Shown here piece by piece: positions 10,606 through 26,171 of a stretch of DNA of 64,000 bases. This DNA is from Xenorhabdus griffiniae (GTDB lineage Bacteria > Pseudomonadota > Gammaproteobacteria > Enterobacterales > Enterobacteriaceae). The position numbers and the translations under genes are program-made. Every line of letters starts with the position of its first letter. Position 1 is the stretch's first letter. A model generated the notes under the pieces. The model was not told the origin of the DNA. It worked only from the letters and a program-made list of their open reading frames with translations, and ran no database searches. The stretch lies in contig NZ_CP147737.1 in NCBI RefSeq assembly GCF_037265215.1, positions 4,186,001 through 4,250,000 of the forward strand, given 5' to 3'.

Positions 10606-11511
10606 TCAAAATGGAATGGCCGCTTTTAAGAAAATTTGAGAACCTGATGGGCGATTACTGACAACAAAATCTTTTTGCCACTTCAAAGTCAGCAGCCAGC
10701 CTTTATCATTGGCATAGCGAATGGAAGGACCGAAACCCACCGCCCTCGCTTTACCCTGTGCGGAGTTTGAGCCACTATCATTCGTGATCTGCTGAAAAAC
10801 ATAACCGCCAACGCCTGCGACCAGACCGTTGCCAAATCCCCAACCCAACGCATAATCTGCATGTAGTGCCTGGCCGGAGGTTGTTTTAGTGTCCTTGTTG
10901 CGGAAGTTGACATCATACATCACTTTTAAATCCGCATTGATACCGTCAACAGGGAAATAGCTGATTGCCCAGACGGGTTGCGCTGTCCAATAGTTTTTTC
11001 CCAGGCTGGAAAGATCGTTGCGGTCATAGTGGCCGGTCGGTGCATTGACATTCAAGCCAATAACATAAGCCAAATCAGGCGCGGGATGGTAACCCAAAGC
11101 AGGGCCAAAGGTGATATCCCCTATCCCTTTGCTGTTGTCATGTTTGCCAGCAGCATCAGCGGTAACATCCAATAATGGCACGATAGCATGATAAGCCAGC
11201 TGCCCGCCAAAGACTTGCGTCTCGGTCACCCAAACCAATCGCGGGGCAAGGACATTCACATTGACTTTAAAACCAGGAACAGGAATCAAATTGCCGTGAT
11301 TGCCCTTAAGCTTGGTATAGTGAATATTGCCACCATAAAACAGGGTATGAAGGCCCGCAGGCGGTAAAGCACCGGATAAGTAATTATCCAGACCATCAGG
11401 ATAGGCGCCGACACCACCTTCTGTTGCCATCGCGGAATGACTTATCATAGCCAAGAAACCTGGCAGTGATAAAACCGCTGCATAAAAGAGCCGTCTGAAT
11501 TTAGACGTCAT
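10606..11511 (-). CDS. SphA/phenol-MetA-type outer-membrane transporter
   Basis: Predicted outer-membrane beta-barrel of the SphA/phenol meta-degradation family (301 residues), thought to admit or export hydrophobic aromatics. A Sec signal peptide ends near SHSAMA (about residue 30). After it come the family's TEGGVGAYPDGLDNYLSGALPP start and alternating amphipathic strands ending with the C-terminal aromatic IPF typical of barrel insertion. Last gene of the minus-strand operon running from 16646. The association with a flavin monooxygenase suggests traffic of an aromatic substrate or product across the outer membrane. Confidence 0.82.
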   Translation of the reverse strand: MTSKFRRLFYAAVLSLPGFLAMISHSAMATEGGVGAYPDGLDNYLSGALPPAGLHTLFYGGNIHYTKLKGNHGNLIPVPGFKVNVNVLAPRLVWVTETQVFGGQLAYHAIVPLLDVTADAAGKHDNSKGIGDITFGPALGYHPAPDLAYVIGLNVNAPTGHYDRNDLSSLGKNYWTAQPVWAISYFPVDGINADLKVMYDVNFRNKDTKTTSGQALHADYALGWGFGNGLVAGVGGYVFQQITNDSGSNSAQGKARAVGFGPSIRYANDKGWLLTLKWQKDFVVSNRPSGSQIFLKAAIPF

Positions 11512-18231: not shown

Positions 18232-18321
18232 CGATTTATCCCCATACACATGGGGAACAGGGTATTTGCCACCCCGTATTTCAGGTAGCACCCGGTTTAT
18301 CCCCATACACATGGGGAACAG
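18232..18321 (-). CRISPR. minimal type I-E array: two repeats, one spacer
   Basis: Repeats of 29 bp at 18232-18260 and 18293-18321 around a 32-bp spacer (18261-18292). On the minus strand (crRNA sense) the repeat reads CTGTTCCCCATG...GGGGATAAACCG, with the type I-E 5' handle ATAAACCG and a CCCC/GGGG stem. The copy at 18232-18260 has the handle changed to ATAAATCG, as expected for the leader-distal terminal repeat. The array is therefore transcribed in the same direction as cas and lies downstream of cas6e. Confidence 0.9.
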
Positions 18322-18649: not shown

Positions 18650-19249
18650 CTAACCAAGCGCCAAAGAGAGTAAACCACATCCCATGGCTTTAGCTGGCCC
18701 AATTCCTTGACGCAAAAGAGAGGTGAAAACATCACCTTCCTGTACAATGAGTTGTCCTTCAAAACTTATTGGCTGAATTTTCCCCTTAATATCATCTTTG
18801 CAAAAATAGATTGGGGACTCCGGTGTCACCCATACCGTCGATAACAGCGCAGCTCCTGCCAATTTGCGTGATAACCACTGCAACTGCTCCTCCTCATGGA
18901 TAAGCGGCACTCGGCAACATTTGACCCTTCCATTACGATCACGGCGCTGTTCCCCGTCTTTGATAGTCTTAACCGGATTAGCCCGTAGCTTAAAGCGTAA
19001 CTTGGCACCATTGGGAATACTCCACTGAATAGGTTTATTCACGATAACCTGAGCCGCTTGTGCCGACGAAGGTGCCAGTGCTGATTGTAATAGAGCTTCC
19101 GCGCCACGACCAAAGTGCTGTGCCTCAATCCGAAAGAGAAAATCACGTGCCTCATTAGGACGATTGGGGAAAAGCTGCCATAAGGCCCGATGCAATTGAT
19201 AGGGATCTTTCGCCCATCGCCAGTCGATCCAAACTTTACTTAAGAACAT
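18650..19249 (-). CDS. cas6e: Cas6e/CasE crRNA endoribonuclease
   Basis: Cleaves the repeat hairpin to give mature crRNAs and stays in Cascade. I chose ATG 19249 (MFLSKVWIDWRW), preceded by GGGAGA and overlapping the end of cas5e by 10 bases; 199 residues, as in E. coli. The catalytic His20 is in YQLHRALW, and the C-terminal glycine-rich loop GIGPAKAMGCGLLSL is intact. It should process both the short array and the solitary repeat between cas3 and cse1. Confidence 0.93.
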   Translation of the reverse strand: MFLSKVWIDWRWAKDPYQLHRALWQLFPNRPNEARDFLFRIEAQHFGRGAEALLQSALAPSSAQAAQVIVNKPIQWSIPNGAKLRFKLRANPVKTIKDGEQRRDRNGRVKCCRVPLIHEEEQLQWLSRKLAGAALLSTVWVTPESPIYFCKDDIKGKIQPISFEGQLIVQEGDVFTSLLRQGIGPAKAMGCGLLSLALG

Positions 19250-19923
19250 GACGCATCTCCCTGAACCACAAACCAATCATGCGCTGAAAATTGACGAGGC
19301 AAGGCAACGATAGGCTCATCCCGTACGCGTAAAGGATATCCTTTTGAATCGATAGCCTCTTCACTATAAATCGTTCCTCCATCACCAAATTGATTTAACG
19401 CTAATCGAGAATTGTCTGCCTCACACTGCCCCAAATAGAGTGGATGACTCAATGGACAACTACGTCTCCCCAAATAAGGAGTAAACCAAGGCTTTTGGAC
19501 AGCAGTAACTAAACTTGCTAATTTGTAATGACTATCAGGTAAACACCAAACAGCGACAGTAAAGTGCGCATCACAGAGATATTCACGCCAGGTTTGAATG
19601 ATGTCATGGCTTTTCAGACTAACGTAATCCACTCTGGCATCTTTGATGGTGTGATAATCCGTAATTTTGCTAACCTTCACAGACTTATTCTTCACAGAAT
19701 CATCATCCAATTTATGTTCATCACAGCGCACTGCGAAACGAACACTGTCAGATAAAGCCTGAAGCGCAGTTTTATCATTTCGGCGTATCCCCAGACATGC
19801 TCCTAGCAACCCTAGTAAACCACTACGAGTGGGGAAATTAGCAGTAGGACGCATACCTTCAAATGTGGGTTGCCCCCAAAACTGCATAGGTCCAGAAAGG
19901 CGTAATATGAGATAAGAAACCAT
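19240..19923 (-). CDS. cas5: Cas5e/CasD Cascade subunit
   Basis: Binds the crRNA 5' handle at the foot of Cascade. 227 residues starting MVSYLILRLSGPMQFWGQPTFEGMRPT, the standard Cas5e N-terminus with SGPMQxWG, followed by the PTRSGLLGLLGACLGI loop that contacts the handle. Two bases separate it from cas7; it overlaps cas6e. No catalytic function expected. Confidence 0.94.
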   Translation of the reverse strand: MVSYLILRLSGPMQFWGQPTFEGMRPTANFPTRSGLLGLLGACLGIRRNDKTALQALSDSVRFAVRCDEHKLDDDSVKNKSVKVSKITDYHTIKDARVDYVSLKSHDIIQTWREYLCDAHFTVAVWCLPDSHYKLASLVTAVQKPWFTPYLGRRSCPLSHPLYLGQCEADNSRLALNQFGDGGTIYSEEAIDSKGYPLRVRDEPIVALPRQFSAHDWFVVQGDASCS

Positions 19924-19925
19924 AT

Positions 19926-21017
19926 TTAACCCTCACCGTTATTACGGATCCAAGTTTTCAGCTCTTCTAACCCTGATTTGGATACAACACCGTTTGCAAG
20001 TTCCGTATCCAGCAAAGAGAATTGTGCGGCTGGTCCAGTTAGTCCATAGACTTTAGCAACACGGTTCCAGTAATCGGTAAACGCTTTAATCGAAGGTTTG
20101 AGATAACCCTCTTGCTCTGCTCTGACAGGTGATTCAAAAGCATTAGCCATAGATATTGGCACATCGGAAAAGTTGACTATCACCAGATCCGCTGGGTTAA
20201 ACGCTGCAAATGTACGCTGTTTAGCATTCGGGGTTTCCGTCGCCAGCATATGCGCCAGATGTGCAGCAATATCTAACGCCTTGCTGCGTTCAATACCGCC
20301 GAGATTTTCCTGTAATTGTGCAAAATTCAGGCTGGCATAACGGTAGAACACACCAGCAGAGAACTCCTGCGTCCCCAAATGAGCAGATCCTAAATCTTTT
20401 AAGTCATCAACGGCAGCAAACCAGTCAATATCCGATGCCACAGTATGGGTAGTGATGGCGTGTGCAATAGACATCGCCCCATCCACTTTACCCAATTCCT
20501 TCATCATACCGCTAGTCGCCATACGGCCACTTAACGCCAGATCAACGCCATTTTGTAAATTAGCGCGCATAGCCGCAATGTTTGATTTCAGTTGTTTTGT
20601 CAGTTTCTTGTCATCGACCCCTTCAGCATCTGCCTGAGCAACCTGTTCACAGAACCAGGCAACTTCGCCTACAACCCAGGGAGATATGGCACTCCCAAGA
20701 ATTTCCTCCGAATCATCAATTGGTTCTCCAGTCAGTAGTGTCAGTGAACGATCAATCAATGCTGTTTCAAAGCGTGTCCCTAAACGTTCATGTAAAACAT
20801 TTCTCAGTTCAGCCAGTTGGATAGTTCGAATACTCGACTCACCCAGATGCCGCATATAGTAGTCACTCTTACGCATCGTACGTTTAAGGCTTTGGCTGGA
20901 AATACGAACTCGACGCCTGCCACCAAAGATGGCATCTTTTTGCATATTCATATCATCACGGTTCAGGCAGGCCGGACTATGGGAGATTAATACGTGGAAG
21001 TTAATAAAATTGTTCAT
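19926..21017 (-). CDS. cas7e: Cas7e/CasC Cascade backbone subunit
   Basis: Six copies form the Cascade backbone along the crRNA; the Cas7e thumb flips out every sixth crRNA base, which matters for the pseudo-spacer described at 23431. 363 residues, [22 protein letters not shown] start, [20 protein letters not shown] and the [18 protein letters not shown] block are classical. No defects seen. Confidence 0.94.
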
Positions 21018-21029
21018 TATGTTACATCC

Positions 21030-21530
21030 TTATGCTTTTTTCTTTTGAGGAAGGGCAAGTATGAAATCTTCTAATATCCGACTGCGATCATGTCGGTTCC
21101 ACCGGGTTAATTGTTCAGCTAAAGTTGGCCAATCAAGCTTAGGTTCAGCATGGATAAGCAAACGGCGCAACTGCACCATATCGTTAGGCCAGTCAGCTCG
21201 CAGCATTTGGTACAGCCGGCGTTCACTGATACGCCCACTATTTGCCAGCGCTTTACCCAAGGTAATCACTTTTTTATTCTTGTCATCTTCTGACTCAATA
21301 TGTGTGATAACGTCTTTCCCTGCGCTCAGACAAAACACCATACGGAGCAATGGCAATTGATTCTTGGGGGCATGCCAGCCAAAATCTCTCACCAGATAGT
21401 AAAAAGCGGGAATATTTTTCAATTCTCTAGGTTCAGTCACACGCCTAAGTTGGGCAATGTCACCGTTATTCATTTTCTTCCAGGCCTTGTAGAGAGCCAT
21501 AGCATCAAAATTAGGATCAGAATCAGACAT
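21030..21530 (-). CDS. cse2: Cse2/CasB (Cas11) small Cascade subunit
   Basis: Helical small subunit stabilising the R-loop in Cascade. 166 residues; recognisable blocks are DIAQLRRVTEPRELKNIPAFYYL and the C-terminal WNRHDRSRILEDFILALP. Four bases from cse1 and 12 from cas7 in the same operon. Confidence 0.92.
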   Translation of the reverse strand: MSDSDPNFDAMALYKAWKKMNNGDIAQLRRVTEPRELKNIPAFYYLVRDFGWHAPKNQLPLLRMVFCLSAGKDVITHIESEDDKNKKVITLGKALANSGRISERRLYQMLRADWPNDMVQLRRLLIHAEPKLDWPTLAEQLTRWNRHDRSRILEDFILALPQKKKA

Positions 21531-21533
21531 AGG

Positions 21534-23075
21534 TTATTTTCCCTGAGGTTGACGAAAAGTGGCAAATTGTTTGCTTAAGCTGCGGCGTGCAACAGCAAGC
21601 GCCTTAACCCTCTTAGGATGATGACTATAAGGAGTGGTAATCTGTGCAAAAATATTCAAACACAAAATCTCTAATTTCTGTCTCAATTGCTCTTGGTAAT
21701 TAACGGCATTGGCAAAATCAATAGATGCCAGCAAGTTAAGGATTAGCAAATCACTCTGCCGGTAATATTCTCTCTCCCCCTTTTCATGCACGGCTATTCC
21801 AGATCCTTTGATATCATGCTCTTTGATACCTTCAGCAAAGATGTAAAGCGCTTTACGCAAAGCTGTCTTGTGCTCAAGACCTATTTTGACAATTTCATTG
21901 ATTACTTTAGGATGGTTTTGCCAGCCTTGATTAACAACCATCACATCATGCCGGCGCTCCAAAATGGACGCCTGATTATTACGATAACCACCGACAATCA
22001 GTTGCAATCGCGCATTGGGAAATAAGACTCTGCTTTGATCCACCACAGTGGCAGGAAGATGTCCTCCCGCATTTTTTTTCCTTTTTTCATCTTCCTTCTC
22101 CTCCAGCTGAACCTTGACCAGCAAACGGCTAAGATGGGTCCACGATGGAGCAAAGGTTGTAAAAGCCAGGAATTTCTCTTCCGCTGCCCCTTGTTTTACC
22201 TGTAATACACGGGGAGAGTGAGGATGTGGCCACACGCCCTCTACCGTGAAAACAAACTTTTCTTTCAGGAAGCCGGTATAGCGTTGTGCAACGTGTTGTC
22301 CGCAACCGCTGCATTGACCAGCCCCTATTGGCGGACATAATTCAATATGGTTAGGTTGCCAGAACAGCCCTCTGAGTAAACCAATACGTGCAGCAGGAAT
22401 GGTTTCCCCTGCCTGAATCGGCTCCTGCCATACTGGCAATGGGTTAGTTTGCACATCCTCGCTAAACCATTTTTGCAGAGAAGGTTTAATCAATACATTC
22501 AACCAGACAGTTGTACGTAGATCCGCCCTGCGGTTATCTACTGCCTGTATCAACGTGGTAATAGGAGCACCTCCACGTAAACCACTTTTAAACCCGCCAC
22601 CAAAACTGGGGGCATTATTTGCCTTGTTAAACAGGGCAACAGCGGTGCACCCACCGCATAATGCATTCCCTTGTCCCGGTTCATTAATGAAGGTACAGTT
22701 GGTGGCGCCTGTCAATCCGGCCAACAGCGTATCCATACCGGTTACATCCTTGGCTGACACACCTTTAAACTGCATAAATGGCTTTTCAGGATGATCAAGC
22801 TGAAAAGTATCACCCCAAGCAGAAATTCCCTGTACGAAATCATCTGGTGTTAGCGGCTGCGTTATACGCAGGCGCAAAGTCTGCTCATCTTGCGGTGTCC
22901 AAATTACCTGAGTAAGGCAAATCAGTAACTGGAGCGCAGCCAGCTCCATATCGTCTCTGGGTAAACATAACATCCATTGTTCGTCCGAACACAATAATGT
23001 TTGCAGAGAAATTGTAGTGGGTGTTCCCCCTGCCATCGGGCGGACAGGGATCCAATTATGAACCAGTAAATCCAT
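21534..23075 (-). CDS. cse1: Cse1/CasA (Cas8e) large Cascade subunit
   Basis: Recognises the PAM and recruits Cas3. ATG 23075 is preceded by a perfect GGAGG and gives 513 residues starting MDLLVHNWIPVRP; the upstream in-frame start at 23096 lacks its own ribosome site. The zinc-binding cysteines are in LCGGC and CSGCGQHVAQRYTG. First gene of the cse1-cse2-cas7-cas5-cas6e operon, whose promoter I place at 23300-23335. The stop of a short upstream frame overlaps this start (TGATG). Confidence 0.94.
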   Translation of the reverse strand: MDLLVHNWIPVRPMAGGTPTTISLQTLLCSDEQWMLCLPRDDMELAALQLLICLTQVIWTPQDEQTLRLRITQPLTPDDFVQGISAWGDTFQLDHPEKPFMQFKGVSAKDVTGMDTLLAGLTGATNCTFINEPGQGNALCGGCTAVALFNKANNAPSFGGGFKSGLRGGAPITTLIQAVDNRRADLRTTVWLNVLIKPSLQKWFSEDVQTNPLPVWQEPIQAGETIPAARIGLLRGLFWQPNHIELCPPIGAGQCSGCGQHVAQRYTGFLKEKFVFTVEGVWPHPHSPRVLQVKQGAAEEKFLAFTTFAPSWTHLSRLLVKVQLEEKEDEKRKKNAGGHLPATVVDQSRVLFPNARLQLIVGGYRNNQASILERRHDVMVVNQGWQNHPKVINEIVKIGLEHKTALRKALYIFAEGIKEHDIKGSGIAVHEKGEREYYRQSDLLILNLLASIDFANAVNYQEQLRQKLEILCLNIFAQITTPYSHHPKRVKALAVARRSLSKQFATFRQPQGK

Positions 23076-23077
23076 CA

Positions 23078-23299
23078 ACTTTCCTCCCTTAACCAAAAAT
23101 TTTCGCTATTTCCAACAACAACGCCAACGCTGCCACCGAAAGAGATACAATCGCAATTCCCATAGGGGTGACTGAATTTATGGCATTGATTAATAACCTG
23201 ATATTTTTGACAAACTCCCGCATGTCCAAATCTCATTCTGAATATTTGGCATTTAGGGTAGCGAAGAACGATATAAACGGCAATAAAAATAGAAGTCAT
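23078..23299 (-). CDS. possible small Cys-rich protein in the cse1 leader
   Basis: 74 codons from ATG 23299 to the TGA that overlaps the cse1 ATG. A hydrophobic start (MTSIFIAVYIVL) is followed by a Cys/His-rich stretch (five Cys, two His between residues 17 and 51). Codon choice in the last third looks coding-like. No ribosome site precedes ATG 23299, which lies about one base from the predicted transcription start, so it would be leaderless; it could equally be untranslated leader. No known family. Confidence 0.3.
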
Positions 23300-23322
23300 T
23301 ATGTACATTAAGTCATTATGTA
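23293..23322. promoter_or_regulatory. two tandem AAG-PAM target sites for the solitary crRNA in the cse1 promoter
   Basis: Plus-strand AAGTCATTATGTA occurs at 23293-23305 and 23310-23322. After the first AAG, bases 23296-23311 match pseudo-spacer positions 1-16 except position 6. After the second AAG, 23313-23322 match positions 1-10 except position 6. Site 1 overlaps the -10 box and the expected start of cse1 transcription; site 2 lies in the -10/-35 spacer. Confidence 0.75.
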
Positions 23323-23335
23323 TTAAACATGTCAA
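23300..23335 (-). promoter_or_regulatory. predicted sigma70 promoter of the cse1 operon
   Basis: On the minus strand TTGACA (23335-23330) is followed after 17 bp by CTTAAT (23312-23307), placing the start near 23300. It is the only perfect -35 box in the cas3-cse1 gap, and the crRNA target sites lie across it. Confidence 0.6.
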
Positions 23336-23363: not shown

Positions 23364-23400
23364 TTGCCTACGACAAACCATAACGTATACTACTTCGCTG
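23364..23400 (+). promoter_or_regulatory. predicted promoter of the solitary CRISPR RNA
   Basis: TTGCCT (23364-23369), 16-bp spacer, TATACT (23386-23391); the start would fall near 23398, immediately before the repeat at 23402. Orientation is opposite to the cas operon. Confidence 0.6.
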
Positions 23401-23401
23401 T

Positions 23402-23492
23402 GTATTCCCCGTGAGTACGGGGATAAACCGTCATTCTGTACATTAATAATGATGTTTATCATCAAGTTCCCAAACCCTTTTGGGATTTATTT
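23402..23492 (+). ncRNA. CreR-like solitary mini-CRISPR RNA between cas3 and cse1
   Basis: A full type I-E repeat at 23402-23430 (GTATTCCCCGTGAG...GGGGATAAACCG, intact handle and stem) reads on the plus strand, against cas. It is followed by a 33-nt pseudo-spacer (23431-23463) and a degenerate 29-nt repeat (23464-23492). The second repeat keeps the TTCCC and GGGAT arms at the correct spacing and forms a 7-bp hairpin followed by TTTATTT, a plausible terminator; it overlaps the end of cas3. Processing by Cas6e would give a crRNA whose positions 1-16 match the cse1 promoter except at position 6, beside an AAG PAM. Proposed role: guiding Cascade to repress cse1. Functional role is inferred. Confidence 0.75.
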
Positions 23493-26171
23493 GGGGATGA
23501 CTAATATCATCCCCTGTTCATGACTGTAACGTAATCTGCCGTCCTGGCTACTCCAGGCCCAATCAGCACTATCTCTGTTTCCTTCCAACCAAACCCTGTT
23601 CCATTTATCCTGAACTAGGCCCAATTTTTTCTTCCATCCCAAAGGAATATTCACCTGATTACGCGTTAATGCTTCCTGCTGCTGATATTTCTCTAACTGC
23701 TCATAGATACTGCCATCTAACAACTGTCGACCAGCTTCGGTTGAAATAAAAGGCACCAAAGGAATACTCATAGCACCATCACGGGTGACCGCTCTTTCAT
23801 TACCTTCAACGTCCTCCAACCCAACGACTTCAGCCCAATCCATTATTCGCTGTGCTTTCATACGCTGAGTAAAGTTATTTTCTTCAAAGAGTTTCATACC
23901 TTCTGTCACCCATTGCGGCTCAGGTTCAGAAATATCTTCCCGATAGATAGGTTCAATCCATTTACGGTAGGCATCAGGAAAGATAAGTGGTTTACCTTGC
24001 AGAGCTTCGATCCACTTTTGGGTACGCCACATCACGCGGGTATGACTGTAAATTTTGCCATGTAGCCCATAAGTGCCAGAAGCAGGGAAGAGCACCGTCG
24101 CTATGGGATCCTCAAAACCATAGGGACGCACTAGCCACCAATGACGATGCAATCTGCCCAGACGCTGGAATAAAAGATCCACCGGGCAGTGTTGAGTAAT
24201 TAACCAATCGAAATCGACATCCAACGATTGTTCTATGACCTGAGTAGCCACCAGAATACGTCCATCACAACGATCTCCTCCTTTACCAAAGTAACTCAGT
24301 GCAGCGTTCTCTTTTTCTTGCCGGTCCACCAGACTAAAACGCGCATGAAACAACATAACGTCAACACTGCCTGCTGCCAGCTTTTTAAGTCGCCTCCAGG
24401 TCTGTTGAGCTACATCAACCAAATTACAGATCAGACAGACCTGAGCCCCCTTACGGGCAGCATCAACCATACGTTCCAGTAAAGCATTATCTGGCATAGC
24501 ATCTTCAGTGTAATAAGGTTCAAGCTGGAGAGAGAATGAAGCAGGGTATTGTTCGGGTTGATTTTGCAAGTCAAAAAACCGCATTCCTTCATTACCAACC
24601 CAGCTAATCAGAGGATAAGGAACATCTTCTGCTGCCACTGTTTGTTTATTGCTATCATCATTTGGCTGGGGAGCATAACTGCTTAATAGTTGCTGTTTCT
24701 GCCATTGCGGTAACGTAGCCGACAGTAATATTGCCGAGCTTCCGGCACTCAACTGATTGTGCAAAACTGCATCCAGCAAGCCATACATGTATTGATCATA
24801 AGCATGTATCTCATCAACAATTAGCACACTACGGCCAACACCAAAGCCACGGATAAAACGATGACGGATCGGCAATACAGAAACTAGCACCTGATCGATA
24901 GTACAAACCCCTATTTGCCCTAAAAAAACCCGTTTTCGTCCCTGCGATAACCATTCGCAGCACTGGCTCCAGGCATCTTCTTCTTGAAGATTAATCCCTT
25001 GCTGTTTGATCGCTTGAAAAGTCGTATTAAAACGCGCATTACCATGAGCAAGAATCAGGTTCGGGGCAGTAAAGATTATTTTTGCTAACTTGTTCATACG
25101 TTCCAACATCTCGTTAGCCGTAGCCTGGGTCGGTAATGCAAAGATAATGCTATCGGCCAGATTATGCTCCAGCAATCGCCAGGCATAAGCGAGGGCAGCT
25201 TCCGTCTTACCGGAGCCTGTGGATGCTTCGATCAATGTTAGCCCAGGAGCAACAGGAAGATTATCAACCAGAGTCTGTACTTGCCGAGGCTGATAACCAG
25301 AATCAAGCAATGCCTGTACTGAAGCCCCCTGTTTTACCTGACCTATTAATCCACTATGTGTCACTACACGCATAGCGTCTTCTTGGTAACGTTGCTCGAA
25401 GTAAGCCCGTAACTCTGCCACATCAGAAACAGCCGCCGCACGGTAGTTAAAAGTATCTTCGGTTGACCTAGAGCCTAGCCAGTCCGCTATAGAACAAAAC
25501 CCAGCCATCAAAACGGAACAGTCAGGTGGCGTATCTTGTAATGAAAGTCCAACAGGCGCTAAAAACAATTCCGCTGCAACATCTAACCAAGCGAGCCGGG
25601 CTTGTTTATCACGATCTTCATGGTGGTGTAATGAAAATAATAATGAGTAGACATCATCACGTTGGATCACACTCTTTTTTTGTTTGATAGTACCATGATG
25701 ACCAAATACGGCTTCTACCCAGGGGAGCCAATCTTGGTAAGGCTGTGTTTCTGGCTCAGAAAACCCATCGTCATCTTCAGATGATTCTGGCTGATGATCC
25801 TTAATAAACCAGTAAAGCCCAGAAGCACCATGATCGTAACCTTTACAGTCATTGATTGAAGGCAGGAGGGATTGTTTATCTTCTGGGTTTAAAAACAGCC
25901 AAATTTGGGATGACTTACATTGAAAGCGGATTTCAAATTTACCCAGATCATGCAGTGCAACAAAAAAGAGCACCCACGCTCTTATTTCTCGCTCACTTCT
26001 GTCTTGATGGATACAAAACAGGCGCCTTAACCCTGGGCTATGATCCCACCAGTACGCAGCTACACTGACCACATCCAGACTGTGGAAAGGTAACAGATGA
26101 TATTCAACACTTTCTGTATATTTTCGCTTCCGTGCTTTTCCCCAATATCGAAATATTATCGTAATATTCAT
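23487..26171 (-). CDS. cas3: Cas3 helicase-nuclease (type I-E)
   Basis: Recruited by target-bound Cascade to degrade DNA. 894 residues. N-terminal HD nuclease: YHLLPFHSLDVVSV (about 25-38) and LHDLGKFEIRFQ (about 73-84), then DHGASGLYW and FGHHG. Helicase: Walker A EASTGSGKTEAAL (about 317-329), LPTQATANEM, DEIH box LIVDEIHAYD, LLSATLP, and QRLGRLHRH motif VI. All catalytic motifs look intact. Its stop codon lies in the degenerate second repeat of the solitary CRISPR element. Upstream DNA holds a family A repeat and a CRP-like site. Confidence 0.95.
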   Translation of the reverse strand: MNITIIFRYWGKARKRKYTESVEYHLLPFHSLDVVSVAAYWWDHSPGLRRLFCIHQDRSEREIRAWVLFFVALHDLGKFEIRFQCKSSQIWLFLNPEDKQSLLPSINDCKGYDHGASGLYWFIKDHQPESSEDDDGFSEPETQPYQDWLPWVEAVFGHHGTIKQKKSVIQRDDVYSLLFSLHHHEDRDKQARLAWLDVAAELFLAPVGLSLQDTPPDCSVLMAGFCSIADWLGSRSTEDTFNYRAAAVSDVAELRAYFEQRYQEDAMRVVTHSGLIGQVKQGASVQALLDSGYQPRQVQTLVDNLPVAPGLTLIEASTGSGKTEAALAYAWRLLEHNLADSIIFALPTQATANEMLERMNKLAKIIFTAPNLILAHGNARFNTTFQAIKQQGINLQEEDAWSQCCEWLSQGRKRVFLGQIGVCTIDQVLVSVLPIRHRFIRGFGVGRSVLIVDEIHAYDQYMYGLLDAVLHNQLSAGSSAILLSATLPQWQKQQLLSSYAPQPNDDSNKQTVAAEDVPYPLISWVGNEGMRFFDLQNQPEQYPASFSLQLEPYYTEDAMPDNALLERMVDAARKGAQVCLICNLVDVAQQTWRRLKKLAAGSVDVMLFHARFSLVDRQEKENAALSYFGKGGDRCDGRILVATQVIEQSLDVDFDWLITQHCPVDLLFQRLGRLHRHWWLVRPYGFEDPIATVLFPASGTYGLHGKIYSHTRVMWRTQKWIEALQGKPLIFPDAYRKWIEPIYREDISEPEPQWVTEGMKLFEENNFTQRMKAQRIMDWAEVVGLEDVEGNERAVTRDGAMSIPLVPFISTEAGRQLLDGSIYEQLEKYQQQEALTRNQVNIPLGWKKKLGLVQDKWNRVWLEGNRDSADWAWSSQDGRLRYSHEQGMILVIPK

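Follow-up and report, generated by a model that had tools for sequence, protein, structure and literature searches.

A solitary type I-E repeat between cas3 and cse1 of Xenorhabdus griffiniae probably guides Cascade to the promoter region of its own operon

A mini-CRISPR lies antisense to the cas genes in the 414-nt gap between cas3 and cse1 of Xenorhabdus griffiniae, and its guide matches the promoter region of the adjacent Cascade operon. The element is very probably a CreR-type mini-CRISPR through which Cascade represses its own operon. The same arrangement is present in relatives with other guides, which match their own promoter regions, and the immune complex therefore most likely limits its own production. 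A single sequence coincidence is thereby extended to a conserved regulatory family, in which the guide-target mismatches of six lineages fall on the sixth position of Cascade. The window, which is the whole analysed stretch of 64,000 nucleotides, contains the following features.

18232..18321, minus strand: local array with one spacer between two repeats, which are of another type than the solitary repeat
18650..19249, minus strand: cas6e (PF08798)
19240..19923, minus strand: cas5 (PF09704)
19926..21017, minus strand: cas7 (PF09344)
21030..21530, minus strand: cse2 (PF09485)
21534..23072, minus strand: cse1, or cas8e (PF09481), 58% identical to E. coli K-12 CasA
23089..23223, minus strand: unannotated 44-aa ORF (MREFVKNIRLLINAINSVTPMGIAIVSLSVAALALLLEIAKIFG) that lies between cse1 and the target and has a single predicted membrane helix
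23293..23311, plus strand: target site 1, with the AAG PAM (23293-23295) and the matched part of the protospacer (23296-23311)
23298..23326, minus strand: predicted cse1-operon promoter TTAATA-17-CATAAT, a weak consensus call, with its -10 box (23298-23303) within the target
23310..23323, plus strand: target site 2, near tandem, with AAG at 23310-23312 and TCATTATGTA from 23313; seed match 9 of 10
23364..23391, plus strand: predicted mini-CRISPR promoter TTGCCT-16-TATACT, whose end is 10 nt from the repeat; a weak prediction if the scan is taken by itself
23402..23430, plus strand: solitary I-E repeat GTATTCCCCGTGAGTACGGGGATAAACCG, with a 7-bp stem, a 4-nt loop and an intact 3' handle
23431..23463, plus strand: pseudo-spacer of 33 nt; the guide part is positions 1-5 and 7-16
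23464..23492, plus strand: psi-R2, a degenerate second repeat, with a hairpin at 23468-23485 followed by TTTATTT
23487..26171, minus strand: cas3 (PF18019 and PF22590), whose 3' end overlaps psi-R2

The initial annotation of this DNA had described a lone complete I-E repeat, a 33-nt pseudo-spacer and a decayed repeat, antisense between cas3 and cse1, and this description holds. The repeat at 23402-23430 on the plus strand is the repeat of the genus with one mismatch, is the only match in the window at up to three mismatches, and folds with a z score of -2.4. Consisting of one repeat and a degenerate hairpin, the element falls outside CRISPR arrays in the sense of at least two regularly spaced, near-identical repeats. 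The psi-R2 hairpin has the same 7-bp stem and 4-nt loop as the repeat. Its proposed likeness to a terminator was recovered in the scan (one found versus 0.2 expected) but not in the folding energy, which is ordinary (equalled by 31 of 200 shuffles); psi-R2 is possibly a terminator or a weak Cas6e site. Across the eight elements found in this analysis, the stem of the first repeat shows compensatory changes in three pairs. The second hairpin has a conserved core, and of its seven pairs two are disrupted in one or two elements. An Rfam scan of the window's element gave no match at E <= 1. By eye, a further hairpin-like stretch of the type GGGATGA..TCATCCC follows psi-R2 at 23493-23512 and recurs at the cas3 end in several loci; it is perhaps a terminator.

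Guide positions 1-5 and 7-16 are identical to 23296-23311 directly behind AAG, with a mismatch at position 6, exactly as first reported. A full 32-nt protospacer at this site would extend to 23327. Target site 2 is an addition to the earlier description. Eight places in the 4.77-Mb genome are at most two mismatches away from the AAG-plus-guide pattern AAGTCATTNTGTACATT: the target with no mismatch, the element itself, and six others with two mismatches. When compared with permuted guides, the score in the window has p = 2e-5, which is the floor of 50,000 permutations. The expectation of once per 10^9 positions that had been attached to the 15-base identity is only nominal, as it equals 4^15 per position.

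The target overlaps the -10 box predicted for cse1 (CATAAT, 23298-23303, minus strand), in agreement with the initial annotation. The promoter claimed just upstream of the repeat is present as TTGCCT-16-TATACT, but the yield of the scan is near chance. Because two sites were found versus 1.7 in shuffles, neither promoter call is evidence by itself. The TTGCCT-16-TATACT sequence is conserved in both other Xenorhabdus loci described below, and no cas-strand promoter above the scan threshold was found in the loci of two other family genomes, G089 and G217.

The comparison covered eleven K-12-type cse1 loci, namely the window, two other Xenorhabdus loci, seven other genomes of the family, and E. 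coli K-12, which was selected by name. An antisense solitary repeat is present in the cas3-cse1 gap of 8 of these 11 loci, representing six lineages; the original observation was real and under-called. Within the genus, 21 of 30 genomes have some cse1 match, and the eda type occurs at >=78% identity in three only. The repeat, guide and target are all kept in the two besides the window's, X. thuongxuanensis 30TX1 and X. kozodoii DSM 17907, and in the latter, position 11 has changed from C to T in guide and target alike. In X. kozodoii the solitary repeat is also preceded by a second spacer and a further degenerate repeat (L031, about 11168-11231).

Beyond the genus, a search of 392 family genomes gave a close cse1 (E <= 1e-40) in 8, one of which is the genome of the window. 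Four of the seven others (G089, G217, G076 and G198) carry the antisense solitary repeat, and the remaining three have none in their gaps of 49, 38 and 207 nt. The distance from target to cse1 is 180-224 nt in seven loci and 107 nt in G198. In the fetched stretch of G198 (L070), only the first 203 residues of cse1 were found, directly followed by a 16-repeat array, and the guide and target are retained. Because this truncated cse1 is accompanied by no cse2, cas7, cas5 or cas6e in the fetched stretch, the G198 element sits in a decayed operon. An order-level search gave 3 of 394 genomes at E <= 1e-30; two had been found before, and the third, G520 (E 2.6e-34), is distant. Genus searches around G089 (one genome), G217 (two) and G198 (two) gave no further locus. 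The start of the window's guide was found only in the window's own genome among 295 family genomes, a set that had four genomes of the genus and neither of the guide-sharing relatives.

The pairing between guide and target was compared across these lineages. The seed score of each guide on its own locus is 9-10 of 10 in all eight loci, versus 3-8 for foreign guides, with the three guide-sharing Xenorhabdus loci set aside. When each locus (16-64 kb) is searched from end to end with no PAM imposed, the best non-self seed match is the AAG site in the cas3-cse1 gap in 8 of 8 loci. Relatives that retain the repeat and lack the match had been named as the finding that would speak against the initial annotation; all eight keep the AAG seed match though their guides differ. 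In a per-position tally with one locus for each of the six lineages, 58 of the 60 cells at guide positions 1-5 and 7-11 are matches, versus one of six at position 6 (Fisher p 1.4e-5). Cascade leaves every sixth base unpaired, and the free position 6 therefore falls where pairing does not count. Position 12 matches in three of six, positions 13-16 in 15 of 24 (position 16 in two of six), and positions 19-23 in 7 of 30; matching is at background level beyond position 15. The guide of G217 has a mismatch at position 1, and its repeat ends in CCA; the K-12 guide has a mismatch at position 9.

Permutation p values for the individual loci range from 2e-5 to 2.8e-4, and none of 680 array spacers used as controls attains any locus's own score. 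The combined p is 2e-20 for the six lineages if they are independent, a value bounded by the number of permutations (50,000). The guides of G089 and of Xenorhabdus each reach 8 of 10 on the other's loci. Because of this mutual score, the two guides may share descent, and the six lineages are not fully independent. Taken as a sequence comparison, these data strongly support a guide that would target the promoter region of its own Cascade operon.

The arrangement agrees with that of X. griffiniae ID10, which is probably the same strain; its authors placed a unit of this kind "at the end of cas3 in the eda locus", and regarded these units as remnants (PMC11566119 section 19). A degenerated CRISPR unit that no longer has a function would fit the presence of only one clear repeat and the position of the G198 copy beside a truncated Cascade operon. 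However, the element stands in the same place in 8 of 11 loci from six lineages, with seed and target matched and the flanks divergent. We rejected this explanation, which we consider extremely improbable, on the basis of the 58 of 60 cells versus one of six at position 6, together with the AAG gap site as best match in every locus.

The steps of autorepression by Cascade in X. griffiniae, from transcription and processing to binding, repression and relief, can be proposed from these features. The predicted promoter at 23364-23391 would produce a short RNA from the strand opposite the cas genes, Cas6e would cut this RNA within the solitary repeat, and Cascade would load the guide. The seed (positions 1-5 and 7-16) would then pair with the AAG-flanked 23296-23311, and RNA polymerase would be kept off the cse1 promoter. 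Because the pairing ends after about 15 nt, the expected outcome is binding of Cascade that does not license cleavage by Cas3. The amount of free Cascade would set the strength of repression, which would weaken once array crRNAs or anti-CRISPR proteins occupy the complex.

The counterpart in E. coli K-12 is located in the cas3-casA gap of 414 nt, which contains a repeat-like hairpin ending GGGATAAACCG, a guide beginning TTATTGGTCTTATTATC, and AAG-TTATTCGTTTTATTATT 125 nt before the repeat.

8482-8543 of L072 (NC_000913.3), cas3-casA gap: K-12 solitary repeat and guide

Of 5426 E. coli genomes, 1123 contain at least 80% of the 90-nt unit; for the 1,021-nt K-12-type stretch, the number at the same cut-off is 1118. 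Among seven aligned strains (K-12 and six variants), the guide differs only at position 12, a flipped base, and position 28, which is outside the seed. Several stretches of the gap are replaced in strain P276M, with target positions 1-13 retained; casA is annotated with an internal stop in P276M and O6:H16. E. coli IAI1 has the other I-E type, and no solitary repeat was seen in its 97-nt cas3-casA gap. Rfam returned two snoRNA matches only, far below thresholds, for the E. coli element.

A TATAAT box ends 87 nt before the K-12 repeat, and we estimate that an RNA from the TATAAT start through the hairpin after the unit would be about 190 nt long. An anti-Pcas transcript was reportedly described in E. 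coli by Pul et al. in 2010. According to the accessible part of PMC7074321, a folded RNA of 150-200 nt is detected from the anti-Pcas strand, and the available text of a 2023 review states that "Its role is unknown" (PMC10011333). This RNA of 150-200 nt and the K-12 guide unit are on the same strand, and we propose that anti-Pcas makes the guide. The E. coli anti-Pcas RNA appears to be this guide, which would be released as a crRNA-like RNA with the 5' end ATAAACCG-TTATTGGTC. This would give a direct and easily tested account of anti-Pcas in a much-studied type I CRISPR system, and may imply a hidden feedback loop in E. coli Cascade studies with hns mutants.

Transcription of the mini-CRISPR into the 3' end of cas3 might instead disturb the termination or translation of cas3, with the guide match being secondary. 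The transcript would be antisense to cas3, psi-R2 overlaps the cas3 stop, and an antisense role is the suggestion made for E. coli anti-Pcas in the available text of PMC10011333. We nevertheless hold this to be very unlikely, since it leaves unexplained the covariation of the seed with the cse1 promoter region, the AAG, and the free position 6 in six lineages.

The repression proposed here may also affect a small ORF. In 6 of 8 loci, the stretch from the target to cse1 contains an ORF of 36-46 aa with one hydrophobic helix. In pairwise comparisons of the three Xenorhabdus copies, changes at codon positions 1, 2 and 3 number 4, 3 and 11; 2, 4 and 11; and 4, 5 and 15. Third positions dominate, a substitution pattern that looks like that of a coding sequence. 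Four peptides were tested, and gave no Pfam match above the cut-off and no NCBIfam match. Both observations on the ORF, its recurrence and its third-position changes, would suit a guard module, in which the guide restrains a membrane peptide whose ORF comes first in the cse1 transcript, the peptide is freed when Cascade is lost or inhibited, in the manner of CreTA or CrePA, and cas autorepression is a by-product. The peptides have no family match, however, and E. coli K-12 and G198, both of which keep guide and target, have no such ORF in this interval; we regard a guard function of this kind as rather unlikely. A combined form, which we judge slightly less probable still, would have the conserved guide (anti-Pcas in its K-12 copy) control a transcript whose ancestral first gene encodes the tiny membrane peptide. 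Cascade would repress itself and the peptide alike, and the module would be a cas autorepressor as well as a guard, with the peptide set free once Cascade is disabled by phage inhibitors.

The genome of the window has a second I-E system, with cas1, at the gnt locus (3.92 Mb). The solitary repeat is of the type of this second system and not of the local array type; the local one-spacer array (18232-18321, minus strand) was missing from the initial annotation. A similar stretch (TGGCAAAT) is common to the flank and the spacer of this local array. The repeat type would be in line with cross-regulation, in which the Cascade of the gnt locus mainly loads the guide and represses the first system. 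In X. thuongxuanensis, however, that stem-loop type is present in the array of the eda locus itself, and the E. coli K-12 locus examined has a single system. Cross-regulation is quite unlikely in our estimation.

The gnt loci have mini-CRISPRs of their own. A two-repeat mini-CRISPR is located upstream of cas3 in 9 of 21 gnt-type stretches; the 21 scanned include some short contigs, and the nine were picked by eye for a mini-CRISPR with a related spacer.

gnt mini-CRISPRs, by locus and position: L036 2014, L038 2026, L045 2027, L047 2013, L048 17427 (minus strand), L051 2105, L052 16072 (minus strand), L044 16229 (minus strand), L039 1917

The mini-CRISPR is followed by a small HTH ORF in eight of the nine (transposase-like, with PF01527 in both copies tested), an ORF labelled glyoxalase-like by resemblance, and cas3; no HTH ORF of 60 aa was found in L051. 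The gnt guides match AAG sites downstream, before the HTH ORF, in 80 of 90 non-flip seed cells and at position 6 in two of nine, counts inflated because, for each locus, the AAG site that matched best was taken. The guides covary with their targets, and L036 has three AAG sites in tandem. For seven of the loci, 0 to 2 of 359 array spacers attain the score. The matches of L048 and L051, at 7 of 10, are not distinct from array spacers, of which 6 and 24 of 359 attain the score. None of the 12 other gnt-type stretches is in the tally, and the five of them that were tested have no AAG site with >=9 seed matches. The related gnt guide and the HTH ORF start are both missing in the window's genome (L032 5390-5480) and in L049 (15713, minus strand). 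A repeat resembling the last one of the module persists at both places. Because these guide-target pairs exist besides the cas3-cse1 element, Xenorhabdus seems to retain two separate Cascade-guided circuits. A conserved repeat-spacer unit was also seen at the end of cas2 in the gnt locus (L032 15057-15085; also in L049 and L050). It has 23 places within three mismatches, none below two except the unit itself, and its best AAG place in the genome matches 9 of 10 seed positions (G000:C1:1420454-1420472(-)).

Several known systems resemble the element. The CreR, or cas-regulating RNA, was reportedly introduced by Liu et al. in 2023 in Cell Host Microbe, and Shmakov et al. (2023, NAR 51:8150) are said to have described mini-arrays, mostly of type I, with spacers partly complementary to cas promoters, notably that of cas8; cse1 here is cas8e. 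NilD of X. nematophila is reportedly a solitary, Cas6e-dependent crRNA, and would share with our element the form of a solitary crRNA in Xenorhabdus.

A CreR is defined, in the accessible parts of PMC13131331, PMC12948488 and PMC12737573, as a mini-CRISPR-derived RNA partly complementary to a cas promoter, and the logic of this regulation is described in the available text of PMC12737573. CreRs are reported there for I-B, I-E and V-A systems (PMC13131331, as far as its available text goes); the initial annotation, which placed CreR-type RNAs in other subtypes, needs correction accordingly. As judged from these citing papers, the likeness lies in a mini-CRISPR guide partly complementary to a cas promoter region. 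The element in question has a standalone repeat inside a cas locus, a guide of limited complementarity behind a PAM in the cas promoter region (the promoter position being a consensus call), and a guide-target pairing kept by selection in six lineages (58 of 60 versus one of six). A difference is that, in six of the eight loci, a small membrane-peptide ORF follows the target.

In CreTA and CrePA, ectopic degenerate repeats similarly steer Cascade to a promoter by a partial match (available text of PMC9458426 and PMC12737573). In these systems the repressed gene is a toxin; here the repressed genes would be the Cascade operon, preceded in six of eight loci by the small membrane-helix ORF of no known family. 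Racrs are also solitary repeat units, which in the accessible part of PMC10651486 are located in mobile elements and block Cas assembly. In contrast, our element is located in a cas locus, between cas3 and cse1, and has a guide matched to a target. The E. coli anti-Pcas resembles it in lying on the opposite strand downstream of cas3, and the K-12 gap has the same succession of repeat, guide and hairpin together with the target. The difference is that the available texts of PMC10011333 and PMC7074321 assign no guide function to anti-Pcas, and that this transcript is repressed by H-NS. Type I-E CreRs are thus known, and what the present analysis appears to add to them is the E. coli anti-Pcas as a guide and the membrane-peptide ORF in six of eight loci.
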